A stretch of 41,185 bases of DNA from Candidatus Endomicrobiellum guadaloupense (lineage in GTDB: Bacteria > Elusimicrobiota > Endomicrobiia > Endomicrobiales > Endomicrobiaceae): the NCBI GenBank assembly GCA_031278895.1, contig JAITJN010000058.1:1-41185 (forward strand), written 5' to 3'. A program made the translations under genes and the position numbers. Below are positions 8,578 through 40,540 of the stretch, piece after piece (position 1 is the first letter of the stretch; each line of letters begins with the position of its first letter). The notes below the pieces were generated by a model. That model was not told where the DNA came from, made no database searches, and saw only the letters and a list, made by a program, of their open reading frames with translations.

Positions 8578-8581
8578 TTAA

Positions 8582-11615: not shown

Positions 11616-11653
11616 TTATTTCCCTCCAGCTATTTAGCTTTATAGAGTTTCAT

Positions 11654-12619: not shown

Positions 12620-12620
12620 T

Positions 12621-13250: not shown

Positions 13251-13282
13251 TACATTTCCTTATTGTACATATTTTATAAAAA

Positions 13283-13669: not shown

Positions 13670-13678
13670 AGTAAAAGC

Positions 13679-14608: not shown

Positions 14609-14644
14609 TTTGCCTCTCCCCCGCATTCGCGTTTTAACCCAAAG

Positions 14645-16429: not shown

Positions 16430-16563
16430 TTTTCGCCTCTGGAATCATATAACATAATAGAAGACATTAAATCATATTTTTGGATTATTCTCTTCTAGTT
16501 TTTTCCATCTGTTTTCTAAATCTTTTGCTATCTTTTTTGAGCTTTTCAATCCAAAAGAAATAA

Positions 16564-17769
16564 CTATTTCCTTAACATTGCTTGAACTTTTGTAGGAAGA
16601 CCCCAAAGGTTTATAAAACCTTGCGCATCTTTATGATTATAAATCTCGTCCTTTTCAAAAGTTGCAAGTTTTTCAGAGTATAAAGAACTTTTTGCTATTC
16701 TTGAAACAGATGTAATGGTTCCTTTATAAAGTTTTAGTTTTATGGTTCCAGTAACATATTTCTGAGTACTATTTGTAAAAGCATCCAAAGCTTCTCTTAA
16801 AGGTGAAAACCATAAACCGTAATAAGAAATTTCTGCATATTTATGAGCAAGAGACTGCTTAAAGTGTAACGTATCTCTGTCAATAGTAATAGATTCTACT
16901 TCTTTGTGAGCAGCATATAACACTATTGCTGCTGGAGATTCGTACACACCTCTAGACTTCATACCAATAAGTCTATTTTCAATGATGTCTATTCTTCCGA
17001 TTCCATTTGCACCAGCAATTTCATTCAATTTTGTAATCAATTCGACTGGTTTAAGTTTTTTACCATTAACAGCAACAGGAATACCTCTTTCAAAATCTAT
17101 ATTTATATATGTAGGTTTATTTGGTGCTTTTTGTGGAGAAATGGTCATTTTAAACATAGACTCGTCGTAACCTTTGCCTAAATCTTCCAAAATACCACCC
17201 TCATAAGAAACATGCCACAAGTTTGCGTCTGAAGAGTATGGTTTTGACTTTGTTACAGGTACGGGAATATTCCTTTTTTTTGCATAGGCTATAGCATCTT
17301 CCCTAGAACGTATTTCCCATTCCCTCCAAGGAGCAATAATTTTTACGTTAGGAATTAAAGCTTTAAACGCAAGCTCAAAACGCACTTGGTCGTTGCCTTT
17401 ACCTGTTGCACCATGGCAGACAGCATCAGCTTTTTCTTTCTTTACGATGTCTGCAATTTTTTTAGCAATTACAGGTCTAGCAAGAGCCGTACCTAAATAA
17501 TATCTGTTTTCATATAATGCTTCCGCTTTCATTGCAGGAAAAATGTAATCAGTTACAAATTCTTCTTTAGCATCAACAATATAAGATTTTGAAGCGCCTG
17601 TTCTTTTTGCTTTCTTGTTAAGATTTTTTAATTCGCTGCCTTGCCCAACATCTACACAACAAGCAATTACTTCACAATTGTAGTGTTCTTTAACCCATGA
17701 TACTATAACAGAAGTATCTAGTCCTCCTGAATATGCAACAACTACTTTTTTAATGTTTTCATTTGCCAT
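16564..17769 (-). CDS. argG: Argininosuccinate synthase
   Basis: ArgG condenses citrulline and aspartate with ATP to give argininosuccinate. The pyrophosphatase-type ATP loop VVAYSGGLDTSV lies near the N-terminus, followed by CVDVGQG, ATGKGNDQVRFE and the SSDANLWHVSYEGG segment. Length from the chosen start is 401 residues, as usual. An upstream ATG at 17802 would add MRYENFGGSIK, but GGAGG lies just before the ATG at 17769, whose product MANENIKKVVVAYSGG matches the family N-terminus. It overlaps argD by 28 bases, and follows argB-argD in one operon. argH is not downstream. Confidence 0.96.
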   Translation of the reverse strand: MANENIKKVVVAYSGGLDTSVIVSWVKEHYNCEVIACCVDVGQGSELKNLNKKAKRTGASKSYIVDAKEEFVTDYIFPAMKAEALYENRYYLGTALARPVIAKKIADIVKKEKADAVCHGATGKGNDQVRFELAFKALIPNVKIIAPWREWEIRSREDAIAYAKKRNIPVPVTKSKPYSSDANLWHVSYEGGILEDLGKGYDESMFKMTISPQKAPNKPTYINIDFERGIPVAVNGKKLKPVELITKLNEIAGANGIGRIDIIENRLIGMKSRGVYESPAAIVLYAAHKEVESITIDRDTLHFKQSLAHKYAEISYYGLWFSPLREALDAFTNSTQKYVTGTIKLKLYKGTITSVSRIAKSSLYSEKLATFEKDEIYNHKDAQGFINLWGLPTKVQAMLRK

Positions 17770-18947
17770 TTTAATGCTTCCTCCAAAATTTTCATAGCGC
17801 AATCTACATCTTTTTTGTTGATTATAAGCGGTGGCAACAGTCTTAAAACCATCTCATGCGTACAATTTATTATCAGTCCTTTTTCTAAACAATAATTTAC
17901 TATATCTTTACCAGCGATACTTAGATCTATCCCCAAGATTAAACCTATACCTCTAACTTCTCTAATAATTGTATATTTACTTTTTAGATTTTCCAACTTT
18001 TCACGGATATACTTTGCAATTTTTGTTAAATCACTTAAGAAACTCTTATTCATAATTTTAGATACAGCTAATGCAGCTGCGCACGCAACAGGGTTTCCTC
18101 CAAACGTTGATCCATGATCGCCATATGTAAAAGCGTCTGCGCATTTTTTGCCAGCTACAGCAGCACCCAAGGGCAAACCATTTGCCAAAGATTTAGCCAT
18201 AGTGACAATATCAGGCTTTATCCCATAACTTTCAAAAGCATAGAATTTCCCTGTACGGCCAATACCACACTGTATCTCATCAAAAATTAAGAGAAGGTTA
18301 TTTTTATCACAAAGAAGCCTTACTTCTTTTAAAAAGTCTCTATCTGCAGGAACTATCCCTCCTTCACCTTGAATAGGCTCTATCATTACGGCAACAGTTC
18401 TATTATTTATAAGCTTCTTGACGGAATTTATATCGTTAAATTCTGCAAAAACAAATTTTTCTTGCAAAGGTTTTAAATATTCATGAAATTTTTTTTGCCC
18501 GGTGGCAGCCATTGTAGCCATTGTCCTTCCGTGAAATGAATTATTAAAACAAATTATTTCATATCTATTTCCAGATTTATGTGGATTTAAATACCCCCAC
18601 TTTCTTGCAAGTTTTACTGCGCATTCATTAGCTTCAGCGCCAGAGTTTGCCAAAAACACTCTTGCTCCTGGAAAAGTTCTTTTTACAAGATTGGCGCCAA
18701 GCTCAACTTGTATTGGAGCATAATATAAATTTGAAACATGGGCAAAACTATTAATCTGAGACCTAACAGCTTTTACAACAATATCATTACAGTGTCCTAC
18801 GTTACATACGCTAATACCTGCAAAAAAATCTAAATATTTTTTCCCTTTTTCATCCCAAATAAATTGATTTTTTGCTTTCTTTATTACAAGATTGGTGCGT
18901 TTATACGTATGCATAAAACACTTATCTTCAATCTGCTTTATATTCAT
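17742..18947 (-). CDS. argD: Acetylornithine aminotransferase
   Basis: A PLP-dependent class III aminotransferase that makes acetylornithine in arginine synthesis, and often succinyldiaminopimelate in lysine synthesis. Conserved parts are NSGAEANECAVKLARK near 101-116, FHGRTMA near 138, the IFDEIQCGIGRTG segment with the PLP-binding Asp at 223, and the Schiff-base Lys252 in TMAKSLANGLPLGA. The 401-residue length is normal. It overlaps argB by 4 bases (ATGA) and argG by 28 bases. The gene context favours acetylornithine over ornithine or GABA as the substrate. Confidence 0.94.
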   Translation of the reverse strand: MNIKQIEDKCFMHTYKRTNLVIKKAKNQFIWDEKGKKYLDFFAGISVCNVGHCNDIVVKAVRSQINSFAHVSNLYYAPIQVELGANLVKRTFPGARVFLANSGAEANECAVKLARKWGYLNPHKSGNRYEIICFNNSFHGRTMATMAATGQKKFHEYLKPLQEKFVFAEFNDINSVKKLINNRTVAVMIEPIQGEGGIVPADRDFLKEVRLLCDKNNLLLIFDEIQCGIGRTGKFYAFESYGIKPDIVTMAKSLANGLPLGAAVAGKKCADAFTYGDHGSTFGGNPVACAAALAVSKIMNKSFLSDLTKIAKYIREKLENLKSKYTIIREVRGIGLILGIDLSIAGKDIVNYCLEKGLIINCTHEMVLRLLPPLIINKKDVDCAMKILEEALKWQMKTLKK

Positions 18948-19693
18948 TTCTTTATTACTGTTCCTTTAATATTTTTTATGCTGCTTGCGCCGTCTGCTAT
19001 CCATACTTCTTTTACGCCTTTCTTTATAGAATCCGCACAACTTTTTATTTTTGGAATCATTCCGCCGGTTATTGTTTCATCTTTTATCAAAGCATTTATG
19101 TCTTTTACTCTAATCTCGTTGATACTCTTTTTATTTTTATCAAAAACACCATGAACATCTGTTAAAAATATTAATTTCCCCGCTTTAAAAGCTACAGCTA
19201 TTGCAGCTGCCAATACATCTGCATTAACATTCATAACATTGCCCTTAGCATCCGATGCTATAGAGGCTATTACAGGTAAAAAATCTGAATCTATTAAAAT
19301 TTCTATTAACTTTTTATTTACTTTTATAGGCTCTCCTACAAGTCCAAGTTCTTTAACTTGCTTACAAATAACGCTTTTCCCATCTTTCCCAGAAATTCCA
19401 ACTGCACTTGCGCCATTTTTAATAAGCCCTGTAGTAATAATTCTATTTACTTTTCCACTTAAAGCTAATTCAACAACATCTAAAGCATTAGAATCAGTAT
19501 ATCTTAAACCATTAACGAATTTACTCTTCACAGAAAACTTCTCAAGCATAGAGTTAATTTCTGGACTGCCACCGTGAACTAAAATAATTCTTTGTCTTTG
19601 CGAAATTACTGCAAGCTCTTTTAGAAACTTAGCTTGTGCTTGTGGATTCCTTATTAAACTTCCACCGAATTTTACTACTGTTAGAGACTTCAT
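18944..19693 (-). CDS. argB: Acetylglutamate kinase
   Basis: ArgB phosphorylates N-acetylglutamate, the second step of arginine synthesis. The amino-acid kinase fold shows VKFGGSLI at residues 7-14, the substrate loop LVHGGSPEIN near 39-48, GLRYTDSNALDVVELALSG, and a nucleotide-site segment LIFLTDVHGVFDKNK followed by GGMIPKIKSC. Length 249 is slightly short, like other compact ArgB proteins; the long N-terminal helix of the arginine-inhibited hexameric enzymes is absent, which suggests a dimeric, feedback-insensitive type. It starts the argB-argD-argG operon, overlapping argD by 4 bases. argA, argC and argJ are not in the window. Confidence 0.92.
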   Translation of the reverse strand: MKSLTVVKFGGSLIRNPQAQAKFLKELAVISQRQRIILVHGGSPEINSMLEKFSVKSKFVNGLRYTDSNALDVVELALSGKVNRIITTGLIKNGASAVGISGKDGKSVICKQVKELGLVGEPIKVNKKLIEILIDSDFLPVIASIASDAKGNVMNVNADVLAAAIAVAFKAGKLIFLTDVHGVFDKNKKSINEIRVKDINALIKDETITGGMIPKIKSCADSIKKGVKEVWIADGASSIKNIKGTVIKK

Positions 19694-19733
19694 TTTATGT
19701 ACTCCTATATCTTCTATACTGCTTTTGCTTCAT

Positions 19734-20456
19734 CTAATTTGTATTCTCAGTGTTACATTTAAATCTAAAATCACATATTGAGCATTTTGATAAATCAGGA
19801 TCAAAATTTTCAATCGCTATTTTTTCAGCAACATCTAAAGCTATATCAATGGCGCTATTTATATCTTCTTTAGTTCTCTTTGTATAAACTTTTCTGTTAT
19901 CTGACAAAAAATATACAGATATTTTATCTGGATTAAATCCAAAAATATTTTTACATGCGTAAGCATAAAAGCTTAACTGCAGATCTTTATCAATGCGTTC
20001 TTGTTGCCAAACCCGTGCATGTGTTTTATAGTCTATAACCTCATAAGTGCCCTCAGTATGTCTATCGATCCTGTCAATAATTCCTACAAATTTATACTTT
20101 CCTATATTTGTGTCAAAAGATTTCTCAACATACAAGACTTCAGGTTTTGCTTGGCAAAAAGATATATAATAGTTTTCAAATATTTTAATTCCACGTTGAT
20201 AATATTCAAAAATTTGTTGAGGATCATTAAACCCATCATTTTTCCAAGATTTATCGTAACACTCAAATAAAGCATCTTTAGATTGGTCTTTTTTTGCGTG
20301 AAACTGCTCAAGCGTTTTATGAAGAATATGCCCAAAGGTAATGCTAGGATTAACTGGAATATGAAGATTGTCTAGATATACAAGCTTATACTTGTATGGA
20401 CAAAACAAATATGTATTTATTCTGGAATAACTTATTTTAAATTCTTGTCTGTTCAT
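19734..20456 (-). CDS. PD-(D/E)XK nuclease, RecB/Cas4-like with Fe-S cysteines
   Basis: The protein starts with YSRINTYLFCPYKYKL, the N-terminal hallmark of PDDEXK_1 family nucleases (RecB C-terminal, AddB, Cas4). The active-site strand pair GIIDRIDRH and EVIDYKT provides Asp128, Asp142 and Lys144, and LQLSFYAYA supplies the motif after it. Cys19 together with Cys225, Cys228 and Cys234 (CSICDFRFKC) would bind a 4Fe-4S cluster as in AddB and Cas4. There is no CRISPR array or other cas gene here. At 240 residues it is a stand-alone nuclease. It sits 12 bases from rsmD in the same run; its substrate is unknown. Confidence 0.85.
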   Translation of the reverse strand: MNRQEFKISYSRINTYLFCPYKYKLVYLDNLHIPVNPSITFGHILHKTLEQFHAKKDQSKDALFECYDKSWKNDGFNDPQQIFEYYQRGIKIFENYYISFCQAKPEVLYVEKSFDTNIGKYKFVGIIDRIDRHTEGTYEVIDYKTHARVWQQERIDKDLQLSFYAYACKNIFGFNPDKISVYFLSDNRKVYTKRTKEDINSAIDIALDVAEKIAIENFDPDLSKCSICDFRFKCNTENTN

Positions 20457-20468
20457 AAATTTATTTAC

Positions 20469-21053
20469 CTATACCTTACGTTTATAGAAAGAAATAACAG
20501 TATCACCATACTTTTCTACTCTAAAACATTCAAGACCTACAATATTACCAACAGGTTCTTTTATATGTCTTTGAGCTATAAGAACAGCGTCATCTTTTAA
20601 AATATCGTATTTAACAACTTTTTTTAATACATAATAGGTAAGCGCCAAAGCTTTCTTGTAACCATCTTTATAAGGAGGACCCATAAAAACTATGTCATAT
20701 TTGTCTTGCAAAATTTCAAAATCTTTTATAACATCACACTTTACAACTTTTGCTCTATCGTTAAAATTAAGCATGTTAACATTATACTTTATAAGAGATA
20801 GAGAAATATTACTAAGTTCTGCAAAAGTAACTTTCTTTGCTCCTCTTGAAAGAGCCTCTATTCCAACGGAGCCAACACCAGCAAATAAATCTATAAAGTT
20901 AGAATCTGGTACTTTAAATTGTATTATGTCAAAGACTGATTTTTTCATTCTGCCAAGCATCGGACGTACGGATAAATCATCTTGAGGTAGAGTCTTTAAG
21001 AGCCTTCCTCTAGCAGTACCTGCAATAACTTTCAAACTCACTTTTTTCTCCAA
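20469..21053 (-). CDS. rsmD: 16S rRNA (guanine966-N2)-methyltransferase RsmD-like
   Basis: RsmD methylates N2 of G966 in 16S rRNA. The 194-residue protein matches the family: KVIAGTARGRLLKTL near the N-terminus, the LSVRPMLGRMKKSVFDII segment, SAM loop IDLFAGVGSVGIEALSRGA at residues 54-72, and a terminal VISFYKRKV. The catalytic motif IV, normally (D/N)PPY, reads GPPY here (Gly125). That is one base from DPPY and may weaken or abolish activity. It is the first gene of the minus-strand run, facing away from the lipoprotein gene at 21.2 kb across a 164-base AT-rich gap. Confidence 0.88.
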   Translation of the reverse strand: MEKKVSLKVIAGTARGRLLKTLPQDDLSVRPMLGRMKKSVFDIIQFKVPDSNFIDLFAGVGSVGIEALSRGAKKVTFAELSNISLSLIKYNVNMLNFNDRAKVVKCDVIKDFEILQDKYDIVFMGPPYKDGYKKALALTYYVLKKVVKYDILKDDAVLIAQRHIKEPVGNIVGLECFRVEKYGDTVISFYKRKV

Positions 21054-21205
21054 AAACTAATGACTATTTGCAAGTTTAATTATACAATAATTCTGTTTAT
21101 AAAAACATAAAAATAACAAAAAAAGATTAGTAACCGCTATAAATTGTTAATCAAAATATTCACTTATTTTTTCATATTATTTATTGATTAAAATAGAAAA
21201 AGATA

Positions 21206-21213
21206 TATGCTAC
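21206..21213 (+). promoter_or_regulatory. TATGCTAC element just before the 229-residue lipoprotein gene
   Basis: A -10-like TATGCT followed by AC ends 5 bases before the ATG at 21218. A near-identical TATACTAC occurs before the paralogous gene at 23016 and again at 40646. With normal promoter spacing transcription would begin at or beside the start codon, which agrees with the lack of a Shine-Dalgarno sequence. This is a pattern match only. Confidence 0.3.
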
Positions 21214-21217
21214 GATT

Positions 21218-21907
21218 ATGAAAAAATTAATTATTATTTTACTATCATTTACAATTTCTATATTTTCTTTAGTATCTTGTAGTGCCTTTAAAGTTCGCAA
21301 TTCTACACCCTCATCCTCATCTTCTCAAAGAGTTTTTGTTTTATCCGAATTTGGAAAACTTCTACAAAAAGAAGGTCGTATTATGAGCGAAATACGTGGT
21401 TTTATGCAGTTAGAAAATGAAAATGATTATTTAGATGCTCCGATAGGAGTAATCAAATATAGAAACAAGCATTATACATATTTTGTCAATAACAGAGACT
21501 ATGATGGACAGCAAACTGCAAACGCTTGTGGAATATGGGCAGTAAGAAGGAAATTACGTCATATAGCTAGTAAAAATATTCCAGGGATTAATAGCGATGC
21601 ATGGTGGAGACTTACTGATGCACAAATTAGAGAAATATTGGGAACTCATATGCTTAATGGACATCTAATGTCTCTAGCTGAAAATATACCAGATAATCAA
21701 CAAAATGGAATAATATCTACTGAAGCGATTGTCAATTTACAACTTTATTTTGGATTACAACCTGAAGATTGTACAGTCATTGCTCCAAATGAGATAAGTT
21801 CCCTAAACCCTAAAGGGGTTTCATATTTTCCAAGTCTCATTCACCCTAATATTCAAAATGATCCTGCGTTAGAAAAAGTTGGTGTTATAGAAGTTCCTAT
21901 CCAATAG
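21218..21907 (+). CDS. Lipoprotein of unknown function, paralogue A
   Basis: A signal peptide with lipobox LVSC puts the lipidated Cys at residue 21; a Ser-rich linker follows. Residues 85-145 resemble the product of the gene at 23016: KHYTYF, a DG, a Cys in NACGIWAVRRKLRH (Cys104), then DAWWRLTDAQIREIL. His85, Asp96, Cys104, the LRH triplet and the W-(S/T)D-Q-(I/L)R-(D/E)I stretch are shared by both. Gln98 sits six residues before Cys104, as in SENP-type cysteine proteases, but other spacing does not fit that clan well. No family was recognised. No Shine-Dalgarno sequence precedes the ATG. An outer-membrane or periplasmic location is expected. Confidence 0.8.
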   Translation: MKKLIIILLSFTISIFSLVSCSAFKVRNSTPSSSSSQRVFVLSEFGKLLQKEGRIMSEIRGFMQLENENDYLDAPIGVIKYRNKHYTYFVNNRDYDGQQTANACGIWAVRRKLRHIASKNIPGINSDAWWRLTDAQIREILGTHMLNGHLMSLAENIPDNQQNGIISTEAIVNLQLYFGLQPEDCTVIAPNEISSLNPKGVSYFPSLIHPNIQNDPALEKVGVIEVPIQ

Positions 21908-22695
21908 CGTTCAACGATATCAATCCTTGTATCAAAGAATTTCAATGTTTTTTCAATGGTTTATCGTCTCCACTCGTCGCCTTTTATAGATAGATTATAC
22001 ACAGAATATATTGTCAACAATCCTTCTATCTTCTTAAGTGAGGTTGATATTTGAGAGTTTTCATTTATTGTATATATCAAGTAAAAAATCTACTAATATG
22101 GTTATAGAAAATTATATAAGCCATTTCATTATTCACAAGTTATATCCTGTTATAAAATCTGGAATAAACCCAACTATACGATCATACGATTGGGTATTAC
22201 CAAGAACAAAACCAGCTTTTAATAATGTTTCTATAAAACTATTGGTGCTAATTCTCCTTTCATACTGATAGCCATACCTATTTTGAAATTTCTTGGCTCA
22301 AGAACTGCTAATAATTGTTGAGGAATATTTTCATTGGCATTAAAATAACATCTAATTTCCAGCCCCCACTTAGCATTAGAGTCATTTTTTGCCAAACATA
22401 ATAGGACGCAGTGTCTGTATTTACAGGCAGCGGGTAATTAATTATGCGTCCATTGAGAATATTCATTTATAAACCTTGCTTGACGCGACGCACAGGCATT
22501 TCTACTTCTATTGCTGTTATTCTTGAAGAAGGTGCCAAATAGCCTATACAAATATAGTATCACTGCCAAAATAGTTCTTGTGGTCGTTTTAGAAAAGATT
22601 ATATGGAAGACAAGTATCTCGGTTATTTGAAACCATTAAAAACGCCTGATTTTATAAGTCTTTTTTGTATAAAGAACAAGGTTAATGACTTCAAA
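21908..22695. other. Long stretch without an intact gene
   Basis: Between the first lipoprotein gene and tRNA-Ala I see no intact gene. The middle (22133-22559) holds broken minus-strand reading frames described separately. A small plus-strand open frame at 22038-22268 has no ribosome binding site and an unconvincing composition, and is best read as the shadow of those remnants. No terminator was convincing after 21907. Confidence 0.5.
22133..22559 (-). pseudogene. Eroded coding region with several frameshifts
   Basis: Minus-strand frames give, in order, YYICIGYLAPSSRITAIEVE, then GRIINYPLPVNTDTASYYVW or, one frame over, LLCLAKNDSNAKWGLEIRCY and NIPQQLLAVLEPRNFKIGMA, and last FIETLLKAGFVLGNTQSYDR ending at TGA 22133. 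These stretches look like real protein but need at least two frame changes to join. They may come from one or two genes. I do not recognise the family; a phage or accessory gene is possible. No function is expected. Confidence 0.4.
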
Positions 22696-22768
<73 letters not shown>

Positions 22769-22996
22769 AACAAATATAAATTGAAGATTTTAAAGACGAA
22801 TTTCTTTAGATTTCCATCTAAGATTATATCAGAAAGCCGTCTGGAATGTCAAATTTTTGTAGAACCTTACACTCTCTTAATGCAGTATATATCTTTAAAA
22901 TCCGAATTTATCGGTTTGATCAAAAAGGAGCTTTCTGATAGGGGAAAATTAAAAATCACAAAGTTTACTAAAGATAAATAGAAAATATATTACTAA

Positions 22997-23015: not shown

Positions 23016-23918
23016 ATGAAAAAGTACTTATGGCTATCATTAATAACAATAGTATTAAGTTTTGGAAGCTTTGGATGTTCCAAAGATGGAAAAGGCTTTT
23101 TTGCAAAGAATGGAGATTATAGCAGAATTTCAGGTGGAGTATGTCCTTTTTTCCCATCGTTTCAGCCAAGATATGTTGATAATCCAGAAATTGAGAATTT
23201 AAAAAGAATATTTCGCCAAAAAGGATTTGAAGAAAGAGAGATATTTTGGATGGCAAAAATAGCAACGGAAGATTATGGACAAGAGGTGTGGCCAATATTA
23301 TATGTAGGAGGCCATTTTATATATGGCCCATTTGATGGTAACACGTATTCCAACTGTCCGTTATATTCATTAAAGAGATTTCTTCGTCACTTAGGACTTC
23401 TTGGTATTGTAGATCAAGATCTTTGGTATAGATGGTCAGATAGACAGCTAAGAGATATAGGCGTTGATGAATTGGGATTTCATCAAAGAGAAAGGAGTCA
23501 ACATGTTGTGTTGCTACAAAATCAAATAACCCTGTTTGTAAAACATTTAACACCAGAAACTATACCACATTTAAAACATGGCTGTGCCAGGGAAATAGCA
23601 GTACGAGAAAGACAAAATACTATGCAATCATTAGGCATCTTTCATGATTTAACTGAAATCCTTGAAGCAGAACAAAGAGATGGAGTTGAAATCGCTATAA
23701 ATATGGCCATAGAACGAGGATTTAAAAATATTGAAAGATTAAGGAATCATAGATTTAACTTAGATGCTTTCAGAAATGAAATAAACAGATTGCAACATAG
23801 CATTGATGATTACGATCAGCGTGGTTACTTTCTAGAGGGAAGTTATGGCCTAGTACTATACAGTAAAGATATTGAAGGAGTACATAATCACCTCGAATTC
23901 CTACGCCGCAATCATTGA
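23016..23918 (+). CDS. Lipoprotein of unknown function, paralogue B
   Basis: The signal peptide ends in lipobox SFGC with Cys21 as the lipidation site. Residues 100-156 align with paralogue A: GGHFIYGPFDG (His100, Asp107), NCPLYSLKRFLRH (Cys114 followed by the same eleven-residue spacing to LRH), DLWYRWSDRQLRDIG, and a His about 42 residues after the Cys. The C-terminal 130 residues are a separate charged helical region with no counterpart in A. The Gly that follows the Cys in A is Pro here and the upstream Gln is missing. No family was recognised. The pair could be cysteine hydrolases or simply share a structural module; the sequence alone does not decide. Confidence 0.8.
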   Translation: MKKYLWLSLITIVLSFGSFGCSKDGKGFFAKNGDYSRISGGVCPFFPSFQPRYVDNPEIENLKRIFRQKGFEEREIFWMAKIATEDYGQEVWPILYVGGHFIYGPFDGNTYSNCPLYSLKRFLRHLGLLGIVDQDLWYRWSDRQLRDIGVDELGFHQRERSQHVVLLQNQITLFVKHLTPETIPHLKHGCAREIAVRERQNTMQSLGIFHDLTEILEAEQRDGVEIAINMAIERGFKNIERLRNHRFNLDAFRNEINRLQHSIDDYDQRGYFLEGSYGLVLYSKDIEGVHNHLEFLRRNH

Positions 23919-26092: not shown

Positions 26093-27331
26093 ATGATGAT
26101 AAGAAAATATCTTCTTTCTTTAATTGCTTTGTTGTTTTGTTGTTTATCTTTAAGTTATGCTAAAGATGATGTGTATTTGTCCTTATCTACATCAGTAAAG
26201 AAAAGATCTGATATTGCTATAGAGGACTTTACTGCTGCAGATAAAAATGCAACTTCAAGTAAATATGCAAAACTATTAAAAGATGTAATACAAAACGATC
26301 TTGTGCTTTCTAGATATTTCAATATAATGCCTGCAACGTCTGCATCAGTTCTTATTAGCGCTTTGGTATCTTCAAGTGTGGATAGTGTGACTATTGAATT
26401 TAAAATATTTGATGTTGAATCTGGTGGAATAATTTATAACGCAACATTTAAAGGAGAACTTTCTAATTACAGATATATAGCTCATGAAGTAAGTGATGAA
26501 GTAGTAAAAAGATTTATCGGAGATACAGGTATTGCGCAGACCAAGATAGTTTTTGTAAACAACAGTACAAAACATAAAGAGCTTTACATTATAGATTACG
26601 ACGGTTATAATATTCGCAGACTTACAAGAGACGACAAAATAAATATTCTTCCTAACTGGTCCCCAGAAGGCAAGATGATAATTTATACAAGTTATTTATA
26701 TAATAATCCCGACCTATTTTATTTAGATATTGCAAAAAACAGACGTGGAATTATTTCTAAATATCAAGGTTTAAATGCAACTGGTGTATTCTCTCCAGAC
26801 GGCAATAAAATACTGCTTACTCTTTCAAGAGGGAACTTTCCTAATTTATATCTTATAAATATCTCTGGGGAAATTTTACAGAAGTTAACAGCAGGTTCTT
26901 ATATAGATACAAGTCCATCTTTTGCTCCAAATGGACAAGAAATAGTTTTTATTTCAGACAGAGCAGGATATCCACAGCTTTACATAATGAATATTGATGG
27001 TGGAAATGTAAGAAGGCTGTCTACAAATGGTTTTTGCGACTCTCCATCATGGTCTCCAAAAGGCGATAAAATTGTTTTTACCATGAGGCAAGGTAAAGGG
27101 AATTATGATTTATATATTTATGATTTGCCAACAGCTAAAATAGTAAGACTTACAAATAACCAAGGTAAAAATGAAAATCCATCATGGTCTCCAGATGGTA
27201 GATTTGTAGCTTTTTGTTCAAGCAGGTCAGGTAAAAATGAAATTTATATTATGGCTATAGATGGCTCAGGTACGAGAAAACTTACAGAAATCCCAGGAAA
27301 TTCTTACACTCCTTCGTGGTCTCATGCTTAG
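26093..27331 (+). CDS. tolB: Tol-Pal system beta-propeller protein TolB
   Basis: TolB is the periplasmic partner of Pal. The signal peptide ends near LSYAKD. The N-terminal alpha/beta domain (about residues 25-155) includes IAIEDFTAADKNA and VLSRYFNIMPA. The C-terminal beta-propeller has repeated PD40 motifs: LPNWSPEGKMIIYTS, GVFSPDGNKILLT, PSFAPNGQEIVFISDRAG, PSWSPKGDKIVFTM and PSWSPDGRFVAFCSSRSG. Length 412 matches. It ends the pal-cpoB-tolA-tolB operon, 446 bases before dnaN; no clear terminator follows. Confidence 0.95.
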   Translation: MMIRKYLLSLIALLFCCLSLSYAKDDVYLSLSTSVKKRSDIAIEDFTAADKNATSSKYAKLLKDVIQNDLVLSRYFNIMPATSASVLISALVSSSVDSVTIEFKIFDVESGGIIYNATFKGELSNYRYIAHEVSDEVVKRFIGDTGIAQTKIVFVNNSTKHKELYIIDYDGYNIRRLTRDDKINILPNWSPEGKMIIYTSYLYNNPDLFYLDIAKNRRGIISKYQGLNATGVFSPDGNKILLTLSRGNFPNLYLINISGEILQKLTAGSYIDTSPSFAPNGQEIVFISDRAGYPQLYIMNIDGGNVRRLSTNGFCDSPSWSPKGDKIVFTMRQGKGNYDLYIYDLPTAKIVRLTNNQGKNENPSWSPDGRFVAFCSSRSGKNEIYIMAIDGSGTRKLTEIPGNSYTPSWSHA

Positions 27332-27534
27332 CTAAGTAACAACTTATCGGCAAATTCAACTCCTATGAGTCTTGTCTCACTTTCTTCTAGTTCAATATTT
27401 TCTCTTTTAGCTGCATCATTTAAAAATCTATCAAGGGAAATTTCTAACTGCTCAACAGTCGCATATTGTATCTCCGCAAAATCCAGTTGTATTAAGAGAA
27501 GTATAAAGTGAGGAGTTGAGAAGGAGAAAAACTT
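27328..27534 (-). pseudogene. C-terminal coding remnant beside tolB, unidentified
   Basis: On the minus strand an open frame without a start codon runs between a TGA and the stop at 27328-27330. Its last 50 residues (EIQYATVEQLEISLDRFLND, AAKRENIELEESETRLIGVE, FADKLLLS) have normal protein composition. It overlaps the tolB stop codon by 4 bases and faces tolB. I do not recognise it; it is not a DnaA piece. It could be the surviving 3' end of a gene lost from the origin region. Confidence 0.35.
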
Positions 27535-27609
27535 TCAGGATTTAATATGTAATAAACGCGTACAATAGTGTGCATACCTTTTCAAAAAATAGTATAATGC
27601 CTTTGTTAG

Positions 27610-27638
27610 TTGACATTATGGATAACTTTGATTATTTA
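27610..27638 (+). promoter_or_regulatory. Candidate promoter for dnaN
   Basis: TTGACA at 27610-27615 and TATTTA at 27633-27638 are separated by 17 bases, on the strand of dnaN. The elements overlap two of the DnaA-box-like 9-mers, so binding of an initiator would interfere with this promoter. The leader would be about 130 bases long. Confidence 0.4.
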
Positions 27639-27720
27639 TCAACATAATTATCATTTAAGCTTATTTAAAATTCTAGTTGATAAGTATGACTTTTTTCAAG
27701 CTATCTACAACTTATCAACA
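27617..27720. other. Origin-like cluster of DnaA-box-like 9-mers
   Basis: Within 104 very AT-rich bases there are five near matches to the DnaA box TTATCCACA: TTATCCATA on the minus strand at 27617-27625, TTATCAACA at 27636-27644, TTATCAACT on the minus strand at 27675-27683, CTATCTACA at 27701-27709 and a second TTATCAACA at 27712-27720. Three differ from the consensus by one or two bases, and two are identical to each other. The cluster sits immediately upstream of dnaN, where many bacteria have oriC, but dnaA itself is missing. Part of a replication origin is the likeliest reading; AT-rich DNA can give such matches by chance. Confidence 0.55.
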
Positions 27721-27777
27721 ATATACAAAACACTATTATAACTAAATCTATTTTTTTATAAAACAAGGGAGGAATAG

Positions 27778-28908
27778 ATGAGAGTACTTTGTGGAAAAGA
27801 AGAACTTATTAGAGGAATACAGACAATAACACCAATAGCTTCATCTAAAAGTACGCTTCCAGTTCTTTCTAACTTTTTATTTTATACTGAAAACGGAAAA
27901 ATAAAACTTTCTTCTACAGATCTAGAAATTGCTGTTAAATGCTACATTAAAGGGGAAATTTTAGAAGATGGCGGTATTACTATACCTGCTAAAAGATTTG
28001 CTGATATCATCAAAGAATTGCTTTCTGAAAGCGAAATAGAAATTCGTTCTGACGAATCTAATCAGATTAATATATCTTCAGGAAAATCTAAGTTTAACCT
28101 TATGGGTATATCTAAAACTGAATATCCTGTAATACCTGATTTTCCAAGTGAGAATAACTTCATTATCAAAAGGGATCTTTTAGCTTCTATGCTTAAAAAG
28201 ACTATATTTGCTGTATCTAAAGACTCTCAGAGATATGTTTTAAACGGCGTATACTTCATTTTAGAAGAGAATATTTTAAAGATGGCAGCTACCGATGGCA
28301 GAAGACTTGCTTATATAACTACAAATAGAGTAAACAGTATTAAACCGCAAGCAAAAATAAAAGTTATCGTACCAACAAAAGCAGTAACAGAGATATTAAG
28401 ACTTCTTTCATCGGATATAAAATCTGAAGATATAAAGGTAGGGATAACAGGTAACCAAATAGCTTTGGAAATAGAAGATATAACATTCCTTTCAACGCTT
28501 ATAGAAGGCATATTTCCAAATTATGAGCAGGTAATACCAAAAACATCTGAAATAAAGGTCAAATTAAACGTAAAAAATACGTTAACTGCTGTAAAGCAGA
28601 TGGCTCTTTTAACTGTAGATAAAATATCTTCAGATAGATCTTCAGCTGTTAAATTTTATTTTAATTCAAACATTTTAAGGATTTCAGCTTCAACAGCAGG
28701 GCTTGGATCTGGGGAAGTTGAACTTGACATAGACTATAAAGATGAACCTACAGAAATAAATTTTAATCCTCATTTTGTAAGGGAAGTACTTCAAAATGTT
28801 GATGAAGAGTCAATAATATTTGAGTTTAAAAACTCTCTTAACCCAGCCACTATAGTGCCTGAAAAAGATAAGAGTTATCTATGCGTTGTAATGCCAATGA
28901 GAGTATAA
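27778..28908 (+). CDS. dnaN: DNA polymerase III sliding clamp (beta subunit)
   Basis: DnaN is the ring-shaped processivity clamp of the replicative polymerase. The 376-residue protein has the three-domain clamp pattern: GIQTITPIASSKSTLPVLSN in domain 1, VSKDSQRYVLNGVYF and KMAATDGRRLAY in domain 2, and a C-terminal YLCVVMPMRV that matches the clamp end. A GGGAGGA ribosome binding site is well placed before the ATG. It starts the dnaN-DUF721-gyrB-gyrA group and is preceded by an origin-like region rather than by dnaA. Confidence 0.97.
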   Translation: MRVLCGKEELIRGIQTITPIASSKSTLPVLSNFLFYTENGKIKLSSTDLEIAVKCYIKGEILEDGGITIPAKRFADIIKELLSESEIEIRSDESNQINISSGKSKFNLMGISKTEYPVIPDFPSENNFIIKRDLLASMLKKTIFAVSKDSQRYVLNGVYFILEENILKMAATDGRRLAYITTNRVNSIKPQAKIKVIVPTKAVTEILRLLSSDIKSEDIKVGITGNQIALEIEDITFLSTLIEGIFPNYEQVIPKTSEIKVKLNVKNTLTAVKQMALLTVDKISSDRSSAVKFYFNSNILRISASTAGLGSGEVELDIDYKDEPTEINFNPHFVREVLQNVDEESIIFEFKNSLNPATIVPEKDKSYLCVVMPMRV

Positions 28909-28910
28909 AT

Positions 28911-29186
28911 ATGTCTTGGACTAAAGCAAGTGAAATAGTAGAACTTCTTAGAAAAAGGGTTGGTTTAGAAGAAGAATTTTTTACTGTTGAGCGTGTTTGG
29001 AGCAAAGAAGTAGGAATAGAAAGCATTAGTCTTACTGGCTATAAAAACGGAACTATATTTGCAAAGACACAGAGTTCTGTTGCTGTAAGTGAGCTTAATT
29101 TTAGTAAAAAGAAGATAATAAATAAAATAAATCAGTATATTGGCAGCGCAAAGATAAAAGATATCAAAGTAAAAATAGAAGTTTGA
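28911..29186 (+). CDS. dciA: DUF721/DciA family protein, probable replicative helicase loader
   Basis: The 91-residue protein matches DUF721: WTKASEIVELLRKRVGL at the start, VERVWSKEVG, and GTIFAKTQSSVAVSELNFSK followed by KKIINKINQYIG. DUF721 proteins include DciA, which helps load DnaB in bacteria without DnaC or DnaI. Position between dnaN and gyrB, in place of recF, is usual for the family. A longer frame from 28881 is possible, but the ATG at 28911, two bases after the dnaN stop, gives the family N-terminus, so I use it. The helicase-loader role is inferred from the family. Confidence 0.8.
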   Translation: MSWTKASEIVELLRKRVGLEEEFFTVERVWSKEVGIESISLTGYKNGTIFAKTQSSVAVSELNFSKKKIINKINQYIGSAKIKDIKVKIEV

Positions 29187-29218: not shown

Positions 29219-31738
<2,520 letters not shown>

Positions 31739-32566: not shown

Positions 32567-35110
32567 ATGCCAAAAGATAAAGACGAGAACTTACAAGATT
32601 TAAAATCTTTAGCTCCTATTGCAAGTATTGTTCCAAGAAATATTGAAGATGAAATGCGAACTTCTTACATAGATTACGCTATGAGTGTAATTGTAGGAAG
32701 AGCTTTGCCTGATGTACGCGATGGACTGAAGCCTGTTCATAGAAGAATACTGTATGCTATGAAGGAAATGGGTTTAAAGCATAACACAGCCTATAAAAAA
32801 TCTGCAAGAGTTGTTGGAGACGTTTTGGGTAAATATCATCCTCATGGGGACTCTGCGGTTTACGGTGCTGTAGTAAGAATGGCACAAGATTTTTCTTTAA
32901 GATATCCGATGATTGACGGGCAAGGCAACTTTGGAAGCATAGATGGAGATTTTGCTGCAGCTATGCGTTATACTGAAGTAAGAATGGACTTAATCACTGA
33001 AGAGATGTTAGCTGATTTGGATAAAAATACAGTTGATTTTATACCTAATTATGACGGTTCTTTAAAAGAGCCTTTAATCCTTCCTTCAAAACTTCCGAGT
33101 CTTTTAATCAATGGGTCGTCTGGTATTGCTGTAGGCATGGCAACTAATATTCCTACTCACAACATAAGTGAAATCTGCGATGGGTTGATTGCTTTAATAG
33201 ATGACGAAGATTTGCCTGTATCAGAACTTGTAAAATATATTAAAGGACCTGACTTTCCTACAGGCGCTATAATCCTTGGTAAGAGCGGGATAAAAGATTA
33301 TATGGAAAAAGGCAGAGGATCTGTAAAAATGAGAGCCAAAGCTGAAATAGAGGAAGCTAAAAATGGTAGAGAATCTATAATAGTAAATGAAATTCCTTAT
33401 CAAGTAAATAAGGCAAATCTTATAACTTCAATAGCTGATTTGGTAAAAGATAAAAAGATTGACGGCATTTCTGATCTGCGTGATGAATCTGACCGTGATG
33501 GTATAAGAATTGTTATAGAGCTAAAAAGGGATGCAAATGCTCAAGTTGTTTTAAACCAGCTTTATAAACATACTCAAATGCAGGTTTCTTTTGGCGTTAT
33601 AATGCTTGCTCTTGTAAACAATAGACCTAGAGTAATGAATATAAAAGAAATTTTGATTCATCATATTGAGCATAGAAAAGTAGTTATAACAAGAAGAACA
33701 AAATTTGACCTTCAAAAAGCTGAAGCAAGAGCACATGTATTAGAAGGTTTGAAAATAGCCATAGATAATATTGACGCTATTATTAAGATAATAAAAGAAT
33801 CACCTGATGAAGATGTGGCTCGTGCAGGTCTTATGACTAAATTCCGTTTAACGAAAGTTCAAGCTGAAGCTATCTTGGAAATGAAGATTCGCCAGCTTAC
33901 AGGCCTAAAGAGAAAAGAAATTGATGAAGAATATTTGGAAACCATAAAACTTATAGAACAGCTTCGCTCAATTTTAGCAGATTCTAAGAAAATTCTTTCA
34001 ATAATAAAAGAAGAAACTAGTGAAATAAGAAAAAAGCACGGTGACAAGAGAAGAACACAAATACAAGCTGCTGAAGCTGACTTTAATATTGAAGATTTAA
34101 TTCAAGAAGAAGAAGTTGCAGTAACAATGTCCCATGCAGGATATATTAAACGCATACCTCTTGATACTTACAAAGCTCAACATAGAGGTGGACGTGGAAT
34201 AACCGCTATGAATACTAAAGAAGAAGATTTTGTTGAAAATTTGTTTATTACAAGTTCTCATGCTTATATGCTCTTCTTTACTACAAGAGGAAGGCTCTAT
34301 TGGACAAGGGTTTACGAAATTCCAGAAGGTGCAAGGGCATCAAAAGGGAAAGCTATTGTAAATCTCTTACAGTTGCAAGGAACTGAGGAAAAGATTACAG
34401 CTGCAATTCCTATTAAATCATTTAATCCTAAAGAGATTAGAGATGAATACTTGTTAATGTGTACAAGAAACGGAACTATTAAGAAAATTGCCTTAGATGA
34501 ATTTACAAACCCAAGAAAGGGTGGCATAATAGCTATTAAACTTGAAGATGGCGACATCTTGACGCAAGTAAAAGCTATAGAGAAAAATCCTGAAGTTATA
34601 ATCGCTACGAAGAAAGGGGTAGCAATAAGATTTAAAGAAAGCGATGTACGTGCGATAGGGCGTAATGGTATGGGCGTAAACGGAATTTCTCTAGAGAAAG
34701 ATGATGAAGTTATAGGTATGGAAGTACTTTCTCCAAATGATGTTTTCTTATCAGTTTCTGAAAATGGGTATGGAAAGAGAACTGAAGTTGGTAAGTATCG
34801 TTTGCAAAAGAGAGCAGGACATGGTGTAATTAACATGCAGGCCACAGACAGAAATGGAAATGTTATAGGCATTAAAAAAGCAAACGATGGGGAGATTATG
34901 ATTATGACACAAAATGGAATAACTATAAGACTTCGAGTAAACAGCATTTCTGTAATAGGAAGAAATACTCAAGGAGTAAGACTCGTAAAGCTTGGTGATG
35001 GCGACAAAGTTGCAGCTATTGCAAGTGTTGTAAAAGATGATACAGAAGGGATTGAAGTTCAAGATGCTGTAGAAAAAGCAAAAGACGAAGAAGGTAAAGA
35101 AAAAGAATAG
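32567..35110 (+). CDS. gyrA: DNA gyrase subunit A
   Basis: GyrA breaks and rejoins DNA. The winged-helix domain holds [20 protein letters not shown], the [10 protein letters not shown] loop of the quinolone region near residues 91-100 (with the wild-type Ser), and RYTEVRM with catalytic Tyr135. The C-terminal beta-pinwheel carries the GyrA box QHRGGRG near residue 540, which distinguishes gyrase from topoisomerase IV, and repeated blade motifs such as [14 protein letters not shown] and [12 protein letters not shown]. Length 847 is normal. GAGGA precedes the ATG. A hairpin terminator follows the stop. Confidence 0.97.
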
Positions 35111-35999: not shown

Positions 36000-37382
36000 T
36001 TAATTGTTCTTTAATATTTTATATGCTATATAAACTGTAAATATCCAAAAAGGGATAGCTATCACTTGTTTAATCATTCCAAGTTGAGGTGTTGCCATTG
36101 CTGCTAAAATAAAACCTATAAATGCCAGCGTAATATAATTTGAATAAGGATAAAAAGGTGACGGAAACAAAGTTTCTTCATTTTTTTGTTTAAACTTTAG
36201 GTGGGATAATGTAATAATTGTCCAATTAGTAAGAATATAGACAACAACGAAATTCACTATTATTTTAAAGGCGTTAACCCAATTTGGAATAAAATAATTA
36301 AGTGGAACAACCAAAAATGTTATAGCACTTGATATAAAGATTGCATTGAAAGGAACACCTCTTTTATTTGTTTTTAAAAATATTTTAGGAGCATTGTTTT
36401 GCAACGCTAAAGCATAAAGCATACGACTATTGCTGTATAGGCAGCTATTGTAAACAGATAGAGCTGCAATAAGAATAATAAAATTTAAAGTCCAAGCAGC
36501 ATACTTAAATCCAATGTGATCAAAAATCATAACAAAAGGACTGTCAGAAACACTTAAGTTGCTCCAATGATAAAGAGATAAAAGAACAGCAAGCGAGCCA
36601 ACATAAAAAATTAAAATACGATAAACAACTTGGTTGATAGCTTTAGGAATGGTTTTTGTAGGTTCAACAGTTTCTGCTGCAGTTATGCCAAGAAGTTCTA
36701 GCCCCCCAAAAGCAAAAGTGATAATGGGGAGAGCCATTACAAGACCCATAATCCCGTAAGGGAAAAAGCCACTAAAAGTATTGTCCCCAATGTGAATGCC
36801 AATAGTAGGTGATTGCCATAAATTTTTAATAGAAGCACCAGTTACTAAAGAAGGGGCAAAAAATAAAATATAACTGCCAGCTAAAATCATAGCGCAAACA
36901 GCAAAAACTTTAATAGAAGAAAACAAAAATTCTACTTCTCCAAATACTTTTACAGTTAGCAGATTTACAGCATTTACAAGAATAAAAAAGAATAAAGCAG
37001 TTTTCCATGTGGGAATATTAGGGAGCCAATATAGAGTGTAAGCGGCAACAGCAGTAAGTTCTGTTATTCCTGCAAGTGCATATTCAACCCAATAATTCCA
37101 ACCAGCAAGAAAGCCAGGAAAATGACCCCAATATTTATAAGCAAAATAGCTTGAAGAGCCAGCAGAAGGATCTTGCGTGTTCATTTCGCCAAGCTGTCTC
37201 ATCATTAGAAATACTATTATTCCTGCAACTAAATACCCAAGAAGAACTGCAGGCCCTGCAATAGAAATAGCGTTACCAGCGCCTAAAAATAAGCCAGTGC
37301 CAACTGCGCCTCCAAGTGCTATAAACTGTATATGTCTATTTGTAAGATTGCGTTTTAATTTACTTTTTTCCGGTTATTGCAT
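36000..37382 (-). pseudogene. AAT-type amino-acid permease with a stop at codon 3
   Basis: The frame encodes a whole permease like its two neighbours: KSKLKRNLTNRHIQFIALGG, then AVGTGLFLGAGNAISIAGPA and MMRQLGEMNTQDPSAGSS, through twelve membrane segments to AIPFWIFTVYIAYKILKNN. The natural start, ATG at 37380-37382 with a GAGGG site before it, is followed by CAA and then TAA at 37374-37376. The next ATG in frame is at MMRQLGE, which would delete the first membrane helices and the GTGLFLG substrate loop. I therefore treat it as freshly inactivated, though a non-ATG restart just after the stop cannot be excluded. The remaining frame has no other lesion. Confidence 0.8.
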
Positions 37383-37407
37383 ATTTAATTTTCCCTCTAA
37401 GTTTATA

Positions 37408-37602
37408 CTAAATCCAGATAACTAATACCCAAATTGGTATTGCGAGAACTTTTTTTAAATTTCCAGATGAGGGTTCCATAGAACAAAAATAAAAGATGAA
37501 AATCCATGTGACCTCTGAGGCAATTGTGCTGCCTAATGAAATAAGCTGGAAATGTCTATTTTCAAGGGTACGTTTTAAGTGAATATTTTTCAGATCGTCC
37601 AC
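37408..37602 (-). pseudogene. Permease gene reduced to 64 codons by in-frame internal deletion
   Basis: A GTG start with GGAG upstream encodes DDLKNIHLKRTLENRHFQLI SLGSTIA, the N-terminus of an AAT permease, joined directly to WIFIFYFCSMEPSSGNLKKV LAIPIWVLVIWI, which matches the last 35 residues of the neighbours (GMLKQVIALPLWILVLY). About 400 codons between are missing. The reading frame, start site and stop are intact, so a small peptide with one hydrophobic hairpin could still be made. It lies 16 bases after the stop of the intact copy at 37619 and just before the copy with the early stop. Confidence 0.8.
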
Positions 37603-37618
37603 GTATTTTCTCCAGTTT

Positions 37619-39070
37619 TTATGGCTGTTGTGGTTGAGTTAAAGTATTACTTTTCTTTATTACAATTCTATATACTGTATATAAAACCAATATCCATAAA
37701 GGTAATGCTATAACTTGTTTTAACATTCCAAATATTGGAAGGGACATAGTAAAAAGGATGAAAATCAAAAATATAATAGTTAAATAGTTTGAAAATGGAT
37801 AAAAAGGAGAAGGGAAAAGAGTCTTAATATTTTCGAGGTTCTTTTGTTTTCTAAATTTTAAGTGGGATATAGCAATAATTGCCCAATTTATTATAACGCA
37901 AATAACAGAGAAACTTATAATTATCTCAAAAGCTTCTACCCAATTTGGAGTAAAATAGCTTAAAGGTACCACAGAGAATGTTAATATACCAGACACAAGA
38001 ATTGACGCTACAGGAATACCTCTTTTATTTGTTTTTTTAAAAATTTTTGAAGCATTTTTTTGAAGAGCAAGGCTGTAAAGCATACGACTGTTGAAAAAGA
38101 TACATGTATTATAAACAGATAATGCAGCAGTAAGAACTATAAAATTTAAGGTCCAAGCAACATACTTAAAGCCAACTTTATCAAAAATAAGAACAAAAGG
38201 ACTATCTGATGGACTTAGGTTGCTCCAGTGATATAAAGATAAAATAACAACAAGCGACCCAACGTAGAAAAGCAGTATGCGAAATACTACTTGATTAACA
38301 GCTTTAGGAATTGTGACTTGAGGGTTTTCTGTTTCTGCTGCAGTTATCCCTACAAATTCAACTCCGCTAAAAGCAAAAATTATAATAGGAAATGTTAACA
38401 TAAACTCTATAAATCCATGCGTAAAGAACCCTTTAAAAATTGGATCTCCAGCAAACATTCCAACAGTTGGCGCGTCCCAAAGATTTCTAATTGTTGCTCC
38501 GGGAATCAAGCCTGAATTAAAAAATAATATGTATCCGCCAAATAAAATCATTGCACATATTGTTATAATTTTAACTGATGAAAATAAAAATTCTATTTCT
38601 CCATAAACTTTTACAGTTAAAAGATTTACGACGTTTATAAGCAAAAAGAACAATAGCGCTGTTTTCCAAATGGCAAGATCAGGAAACCAATATTGCATAT
38701 ATCCAGCAACTGCAATAAGTTCCGCTATGCCAACTAAAAGGCAGTCAATCCAATATGTCCATCCGACTAAAAATCCTGCAAATCCATTCCAATATTTGTC
38801 TGCGAAATAACTTGAAGAACCTGCAGCAGGCTCATTTGTGCTCATTTCGCCAAGCTGTCTCATAACTAAAAATACTAAAAATCCTGCAAGAAGATATGCC
38901 AAAATAACAGAAGGACCTGTTGAAAAAATAGCACTTGCGGAACCAAGAAAGAGACCTGTTCCTATGGAGCTACCTAAAGCTATAAATTGGATATGTCTAT
39001 TTTTTAATTTACGTTTTAAACCACTCTCTTGTGGAACAACTTCAGGTGCATTTTGTACTTCGTTATCCAT
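37619..39070 (-). CDS. Amino-acid permease, AAT family of the APC superfamily
   Basis: The 483-residue protein has twelve hydrophobic segments and the AAT N-terminal hallmark LKRKLKNRHIQFIALGSSIG TGLFLGSA, where the unwound helix 1 binds the amino-acid backbone. FLVMRQLGEMSTNEPAAGSS and GVEFVGITAAETENPQVTIP KAVNQV are further family signatures. It is an inner-membrane proton/amino-acid symporter by family; the substrate (LysP, AroP, GabP, CycA and relatives all share these motifs) cannot be named. Second of four tandem copies, 60 bases after the first. A tail of Gln/Pro residues at the C-terminus is specific to this copy. Confidence 0.92.
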   Translation of the reverse strand: MDNEVQNAPEVVPQESGLKRKLKNRHIQFIALGSSIGTGLFLGSASAIFSTGPSVILAYLLAGFLVFLVMRQLGEMSTNEPAAGSSSYFADKYWNGFAGFLVGWTYWIDCLLVGIAELIAVAGYMQYWFPDLAIWKTALLFFLLINVVNLLTVKVYGEIEFLFSSVKIITICAMILFGGYILFFNSGLIPGATIRNLWDAPTVGMFAGDPIFKGFFTHGFIEFMLTFPIIIFAFSGVEFVGITAAETENPQVTIPKAVNQVVFRILLFYVGSLVVILSLYHWSNLSPSDSPFVLIFDKVGFKYVAWTLNFIVLTAALSVYNTCIFFNSRMLYSLALQKNASKIFKKTNKRGIPVASILVSGILTFSVVPLSYFTPNWVEAFEIIISFSVICVIINWAIIAISHLKFRKQKNLENIKTLFPSPFYPFSNYLTIIFLIFILFTMSLPIFGMLKQVIALPLWILVLYTVYRIVIKKSNTLTQPQQP

Positions 39071-39130
39071 AGTAATAATCCTTTTTAATTTATCTTATGC
39101 AGCACGCTATCTATGAATAAAGTGTAAATG

Positions 39131-40540
39131 TCAGCGTCGGTACTGTAATTTTTTCTTTGAGATTTTATATCCCAAAAATACTATTAACAGCCATAAAGGA
39201 ATAGCAACAACTTGTTTTGCCATGCCAAGCTGTGGCAATGCCATAGCTATAAGAATAAAAAAATAAAATATTAACGTAATATAATTTGAATAAGGATAAA
39301 AAGGAGAAGGAAACGACGTTTTGAAATGTTCCACCTTTTTTTGTTTCTTAAATTTTAAGTGCGAAATTGTAATCATCCACCAATTAACAATAGCACATAC
39401 AACAACGAAACTTATTATTATTTGAAATACATTAACCCAGTTTGGAATAAAATAATTTAAAGGTACAACTAAAAATGTAAGTATACTTGAAAACAAAAGC
39501 GATGCTATAGGCACACCTATTTTACTTGTTTTTGTAAAAAGTTGAGGAGCATTTTTTTGAAGGGCAAGACCATAAAGCATACGACTATTACTATAAATAC
39601 AACTATTATATGCAGATAGTGCTGCGGTCAAAATAATAAAGTTTAAAGTCCAAGCAGTATATTTAAACCCAATGTGGTCAAAAATCATAACAAAAAGACT
39701 GTCAGTAATTTTTAGATTGCTCCAATGGTATAATGACAACAATACTGCAAGTGATCCAATATAAAAAACTAGAATACGAAATACTACTTGATTAACAGCT
39801 TTAGGGATTGTTTTTTTAGGATTTTCAGTTTCTGCTGCGGTTATCCCGACAAGTTCTAATCCGCCAAAAGAAAAAGTTATTACAGGCATAGCGATTATAA
39901 GGCCAATAATACCATGAGGAAGAAAACCGCTAAATGCCAAATTTCCTGCATGCTCTCCAACTCTTGCTGCTTGCCACAGATTTTTAATTGTAGCGCCTGC
40001 AACCAAGTTAGGATTAAAAAATAAAATATATCCTCCTGTCAAAATCATCACGCAGATAGCAGTTATTTTTACTATTGAAAATGCAAATTCCATTTCGCCG
40101 TAAATTTTTACAGCTGCAATATTTACAACACTTATGAGACTAAAAAAGAATAAAGTAGTTTCCCAAGTGGCAAGACCAGGAAACCAATACTGAGCGTAAG
40201 CGGCAACAGCAGTAAGCTCTGCTATGCCTATCATAACATATAGTATCCAGTAGTTCCATCCAGCTAAAAATCCTGGGAAAGCACCCCAATATTTATAAGC
40301 AAAATAACTAAAAGACCCTGCCATAGGTTCTTCAGTGTCCATCTCGCCAAGCTGTCTCATTATTAAAAATGCCATAAGGCCTGAAATTAAATAACCTAAC
40401 AAAACAGCAGGGCCTGCAGCAAAAATAGCGCTGCTGGCCCCTAAAAAGAGACCAGTGCCAATTGCGCCACCTAAAGCTATGAACTGAATGTGACGGTTTT
40501 TAAGAGTACGTTTTAAACTAATATCTTTAAGATCATTCAT
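39131..40540 (-). CDS. Amino-acid permease, AAT family of the APC superfamily
   Basis: First and intact copy of the tandem permease array (469 residues). It shows ISLKRTLKNRHIQFIALGG, AIGTGLFLGASSAIFAAGPA, LIMRQLGEMDTEEPMAGSFS and GLELVGITAAETENPKKTIP, with twelve membrane segments and a basic C-terminus. It differs from the second copy mainly in the periplasmic and cytoplasmic loops and in GLELVGITA against GVEFVGITA, so the two may differ in substrate. It faces away from the gene fragment at 40.7 kb. Loss of two of four copies shows the array is shrinking. Confidence 0.92.
   Translation of the reverse strand: MNDLKDISLKRTLKNRHIQFIALGGAIGTGLFLGASSAIFAAGPAVLLGYLISGLMAFLIMRQLGEMDTEEPMAGSFSYFAYKYWGAFPGFLAGWNYWILYVMIGIAELTAVAAYAQYWFPGLATWETTLFFFSLISVVNIAAVKIYGEMEFAFSIVKITAICVMILTGGYILFFNPNLVAGATIKNLWQAARVGEHAGNLAFSGFLPHGIIGLIIAMPVITFSFGGLELVGITAAETENPKKTIPKAVNQVVFRILVFYIGSLAVLLSLYHWSNLKITDSLFVMIFDHIGFKYTAWTLNFIILTAALSAYNSCIYSNSRMLYGLALQKNAPQLFTKTSKIGVPIASLLFSSILTFLVVPLNYFIPNWVNVFQIIISFVVVCAIVNWWMITISHLKFKKQKKVEHFKTSFPSPFYPYSNYITLIFYFFILIAMALPQLGMAKQVVAIPLWLLIVFLGYKISKKKLQYRR

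Follow-up and report, generated by a model that had tools for sequence, protein, structure and literature searches.

The window analysed here is a stretch of 41,185 nucleotides corresponding to the entire contig C62 of the MAG of Candidatus Endomicrobiellum guadaloupense (66 contigs, 1.30 Mb, 94% complete). This genome, labelled G000, belongs with the Endomicrobium/Endomicrobiellum MAGs (Elusimicrobiota), which are endosymbionts of termite gut flagellates, and its closest relative is G035, the proteins of which are 94–96% identical. A preliminary description of this DNA had reported the gene order tolB, dnaN, DUF721/DciA, gyrB, gyrA, together with five DnaA-box-like 9-mers, two of them identical, within 104 bases. 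Profile matches bear out the gene order, and the cluster was found at 27617–27720. The features of the region are as follows:

26093–27331, + strand: tolB, apparently a new 5' neighbour of dnaN (in the ancestral order, another gene probably came after tolB and mnmG-W230-pal-TPR-tonB before it)
27332–27563, no strand: putative junction spacer of the rearrangement, consisting of a small-gene remnant and then a dispersed repeat of ~60 bp (DNA matches)
27564–27777, + strand: conserved non-coding element, probably the half nearer to dnaN of the oriC region that lay between dnaA and dnaN in the ancestor (DNA homology to G035, alignment)
27569–27577, − strand: weak DnaA box GTATGCACA (TTATGCACA in relatives), ~−208 from dnaN
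27617–27625, − strand: DnaA box TTATCCATA, −161 from dnaN
27636–27644, + strand: DnaA box TTATCAACA, −142 from dnaN
27675–27683, − strand: DnaA box TTATCAACT (TTATCAACA in G025 and G030), ~−104 from dnaN
27701–27709, + strand: weak box-like 9-mer CTATCTACA, not conserved in the alignment
27712–27726, + strand: DnaA box TTATCAACA with a conserved extension, together TTATCNACAATATAC, −66 from dnaN, invariant in most alignment rows
27778–28908, + strand: dnaN, sliding clamp (TIGR00663, E = 7.6e-81)
27790–27798, − strand: one-mismatch box TTTTCCACA, within the start of dnaN
28881–29186, + strand: dciA, helicase loader (PF05258, 31.3 bits, cut-off 24; E = 2.4e-7)
29264–31738, + strand: gyrB (gene identification)
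32567–35110, + strand: gyrA (gene identification)

The window shares with the replication operon dnaA-dnaN-recF-dciA-gyrB-gyrA (PMC5109545) the order of dnaN, dciA, gyrB and gyrA, but its dnaA is displaced and it belongs to a clade without recF. Neither dnaA nor recF was found in the window, as the preliminary description had stated. For recF, no match above the cut-off was obtained in any of the 41 related genomes surveyed, which gave only short ATP-binding-loop-like matches, versus 9 of the 14 control genomes. Because recF is missing across the clade, its absence is a clade-wide trait that is uninformative for the window locus, and it was rejected as a signal.

Elsewhere in the window, a 709-aa protein is encoded at 6448–8577 (−), with an LptD_N match just above the cut-off; LptD has been reported to be missing from all Endomicrobiaceae (PMC11257099). 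A tandem trio of amino-acid permease genes, all from a single family (PF00324), occupies 36000–40540 (−), and several copies are present in relatives too. Two proteins, encoded at 21218–21907 (+) and 23016–23918 (+), have apparent N-terminal signal sequences and could not be assigned confidently to a family; G035 conserves the second one, ahead of pal.

The element upstream of dnaN begins at 27564, where DNA homology to G035 starts (93% over 4.5 kb). An alignment of 23 members of the genus over this element revealed invariant blocks, and a conserved TATAAT-like block lies within it; a promoter scan of the sequence gave weak matches only and was rejected as evidence. The five 9-mers at 27617–27720 have no more than two mismatches to TTATCCACA. 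In simulated windows of the same dinucleotide make-up, five such sites per 104 bases were obtained in 3 of 60 cases, three sites with at most one mismatch in 1 of 60, and four one-mismatch sites per 200 bases in 0 of 60; by itself, the cluster exceeds chance only moderately, relative to random sequence. It is secure because of its conservation, the spacing of the sites to the dnaN start being constant genus-wide: a comparison of the boxes in relatives, as the preliminary description had proposed, showed the positions ~−208, −161, −142, −104 and −66 to be kept across most of the genus, and these fixed positions across genomes argue strongly for a cluster beyond chance. TTATCNACAATATAC is present as a single copy in the window genome, and 17 of its 22 matches in the genus lie 50–70 bp 5' of dnaN. 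The DNA beside the boxes is AT-rich; the 50-bp stretches at 27711 (~0.6 percentile) and 27621 (~1.1 percentile) are among the lowest few percent of the window for stability, a nearest-neighbour sum that is computed and is not an unwinding assay.

The preliminary description raised the possibility that dnaA is absent from the whole genome. A search of the genome's contigs contradicts this, as an intact dnaA encoding 450 aa, with no stops, is present on contig C2 (14006–15358, −). Its product matches TIGR00362 at 546 bits (cut-off 344), has AAA+ and DNA-binding domains above the cut-off, with one match each, and retains the GGRDHSTV signature. The 78-bp rsmA-dnaA gap on C2 contains two perfect TTATCCACA boxes in inverted orientation, plus one TTATCCCCA. 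Contamination is argued against by the match of C2 to G035 DNA, which is 93% along 6 kb within one shared synteny block.

Most members of the genus, and outgroup families too, have the order (deaD)-mnmE-rsmA-dnaA-dnaN-dciA-gyrB-gyrA, which points to deaD-mnmE-rsmA-dnaA-dnaN-dciA-gyrB-gyrA as the ancestral order. G035 retains it; in that genome, dnaA and dnaN lie on one strand, with 493 bp between them. Homology to G035 ends at C2:14001, just beyond the dnaA stop, and resumes at window position 27564, 214 bp before dnaN; apart from the cut, the gene blocks flanking it are intact (deaD through dnaA on C2, dnaN through gyrA in the window), and no copy of the dnaA-side ancestral spacer is left in the window genome. 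The 27332–27563 spacer was considered as a possible dnaA remnant, a possibility that was rejected, as it consists of the remnant of another gene and a repeat: query positions 19–163 match G035 C35:20999–21143 at 88%, this being the small-gene remnant, and query positions 155–223 (window 27486–27554) correspond to the ~60-bp repeat, with four more copies in the genome at 79–88% identity. Diverged copies of this junction repeat were located on C37, C30, C56 and C13, at least four in addition to the junction copy. Three block junctions relative to G035 are present in the 41 kb, near 4607, 22849 and 27339/27564. An 18-kb block (window 4607–22849) separates mnmG from the pal-tolB operon, these being neighbours in G035 and G026. 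As a different gene follows tolB and its operon in G035, and mnmG and pal have been opened up by 18 kb, contig C62 appears to be a mosaic of rearranged blocks. A recent rearrangement that moved an intact dnaA away, cutting between dnaA and dnaN, is the most likely explanation of these boundaries. In the genus, dnaA has been inverted or displaced at least four times; in a tree built from five proteins, in which some deep nodes are weakly supported, separate branches carry the breaks of G000, of G033, of the G009/G012 pair, of the inverted clade and of the reduced clade.

The dnaN-upstream element is retained in genomes in which dnaA has moved, whether to another contig (G009, G012, G033 and the window genome), to a distance on the same contig (G028), or by inversion (G004, G016, G019 and G030). 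Relatives in which the two genes remain linked, such as G035, G026 and G013, have dnaA flanked by a box cluster on each side. In the window genome, the two clusters do not adjoin around dnaA; because they are on different contigs, the locus would be a broken derivative of a bipartite oriC, and not a standard member of that class.

Raw skew tracks gene direction here, and four-fold degenerate sites were therefore compared by gene strand. The raw cumulative GC-skew minimum of the window is at 22.9 kb, not at 27.3–27.8 kb, the interval that the preliminary description had proposed to check. It was discarded as an origin marker, as it falls where the genes change from the minus to the plus strand and at the block junction at 22849, with no four-fold switch. 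A second origin in the gene-poor interval of ~1.1 kb at 21.9–23.0 kb was also rejected, as this interval contains only a tRNA-Ala gene and no dense box cluster. Around 27.6 kb, the four-fold sites of the window give +16/446 on the left and +19/251 on the right, with no measurable switch. The dnaA contig, C2, is positive in all gene classes (+85/511), so that a single replichore appears to enclose dnaA. The preliminary description had named, as what would refute it, an intact dnaA elsewhere with its own box cluster and a skew minimum; the gene and the boxes are present on C2, but a minimum is not. In G024, where the two genes are linked, same-strand genes change sign exactly at the gap separating dnaA from dnaN, from −56/248 to +94/352, and in G016 (inverted) it flips exactly between dnaN and rsmA. 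In G033 (split), the flip is within ~1 kb of dnaN and the dnaA contig is one-signed. In G028 (split), the flip is at 89.2–90.5 kb, with dnaN at 87.5 kb and dnaA at 75.1 kb; it thus lies 1.7–3 kb 5' of dnaN rather than at dnaA, which is 12 kb off. Skew minima are some kilobases away from dnaN in G003, G004 and G026. In relatives with usable skew, the strand switch is at dnaN or within ~3 kb upstream of it, and not at the displaced dnaA.

The locus had been described as origin-like, and the conserved boxes, phase-locked to dnaN, and the positions of the strand switch in relatives support this. On the best reading, the origin of the window genome would lie at 27564–27777; because the window lacks a measurable strand switch, this assignment rests on homology, conservation of the boxes and their positions, and relatives. 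We consider it probable, at about three chances in four, that the element represents the dnaN-side half of an ordinary bipartite DnaA-dependent oriC, with DnaA supplied in trans. In the ancestor, boxes would have occupied both the rsmA-dnaA gap, ahead of dnaA, and the dnaA-dnaN interval. A cut between dnaA and dnaN would have carried the rsmA-dnaA half to C2 and joined the dnaN half to tolB. DnaA produced at the distant locus would bind the boxes at 27.62–27.72 kb in trans and open the AT-rich DNA adjoining them, DciA would help to load the replicative helicase at the element, and the array before dnaA may have been kept as the promoter control of dnaA itself.

DnaA also acts as a transcription factor, and the boxes might accordingly belong to a DnaA-regulated dnaN promoter, with the origin at the dnaA-side array or elsewhere. 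The conserved TATAAT-like block within the element would suit such a role, and the boxes of the dnaA-side array are the better ones, two being perfect. This interpretation is nevertheless unlikely, given that the strand switch is at or near the upstream side of dnaN in G024, G016, G033 and G028, whereas the dnaA contigs of G033 and the window genome have no switch; moreover, promoter and origin roles can coexist. An assembly artefact, in which C62 is chimeric and dnaA is really beside dnaN, appears distinctly improbable. The 66 contigs of the MAG, the three block junctions within 41 kb and the dispersed repeat at the junction would all be compatible with it, but the repeat copies, at 79–88% over ~60 bp, are probably too diverged for long k-mer joins, and the junctions spare the flanking genes. 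For these two reasons, a misassembly is possible but less likely than a true rearrangement. Both contigs also extend at least 13 kb beyond the breakpoint, the dnaA-side ancestral spacer has left no copy in the genome, and similar splits recur in relatives.

A window genome without dnaA, in which the boxes would be relics or serve another initiator and DciA would act in a DnaA-free setting, as suggested in the preliminary description, has precedents in the genus, namely the dnaA pseudogene of Candidatus Endomicrobium trichonymphae and the dnaA-less genomes G017 and G031. For the window genome it is refuted by the intact DnaA, and the boxes are conserved rather than decaying, dnaA-less relatives having none at this position; we regard it as extremely improbable. 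The idea of dnaA loss does fit G017 and G031, in which dnaA has been deleted in place.

The reading of the element as the dnaN-side half of a bipartite oriC has parallels in known systems. In Synechococcus elongatus PCC 7942, dnaA is located elsewhere on the same chromosome. The oriC of this cyanobacterium is near dnaN at the GC-skew shift and is bound by an essential DnaA (PMC7198777); the candidate origin of the window likewise adjoins dnaN, but the S. elongatus arrangement is old, stable and experimentally proven, whereas the break in the window would be recent, having arisen inside a species group, and is deduced from sequence. Helicobacter pylori and other Epsilonproteobacteria have a bipartite oriC, with oriC1 before dnaA and oriC2, containing the unwinding site, between dnaA and dnaN (PMC5043019). 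The proposed ancestral arrangement resembles it in its two clusters flanking dnaA and its AT-rich DNA on the dnaN side, but the window genome belongs to an unrelated phylum, its dnaA and first half are displaced, and its unwinding site and DnaA binding are putative. By analogy, the origin of the window may work like those of Epsilonproteobacteria and S. elongatus, its membership being putative.

Loss or decay of dnaA in the Endomicrobium lineage was already known from E. trichonymphae (PMC10579323), which has a dnaA pseudogene and an atypical GC skew (PMC10579323, PMC4505116). The window genome belongs to the same genus-level lineage and is likewise a reduced endosymbiont of termite flagellates, but its dnaA is intact. 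G017 and G031 are sister genomes of ~0.4–0.5 Mb forming one clade, with the order mnmE-rsmA-dnaN, in which rsmA and dnaN nearly abut; dnaA was not found anywhere in them at the cut-off level, and there are no boxes before dnaN. The deletions map to G017:C2 near 302 kb (L118) and G031:C2 near 27 kb (L119). DciA was not detected in G017, and G031 gave only a short weak match. In G021:C2 and G029:C2 (L106–L109), dnaA and dnaN are ~31 kb apart and there are no boxes before dnaN; these genomes were rejected as proof of an origin at dnaA, as their raw minima are near dnaA and their four-fold minima are between the two genes. Tentatively, the bipartite origin may have been broken repeatedly in the genus, with the dnaN-side half alone sufficing, and the most reduced branch may have lost the dnaN boxes (G021/G029) and then DnaA (G017/G031), in a stepwise path to DnaA-free replication.

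These results offer a candidate sequence for the replication origin in a genus of uncultured endosymbionts of flagellates, and they suggest that dnaA linkage is dispensable in this genus. The repeated breaks would amount to a natural experiment on which of the two halves of a bipartite origin suffices and, because the same genus includes lineages without dnaA, comparing its members may reveal how DnaA-free replication was reached.
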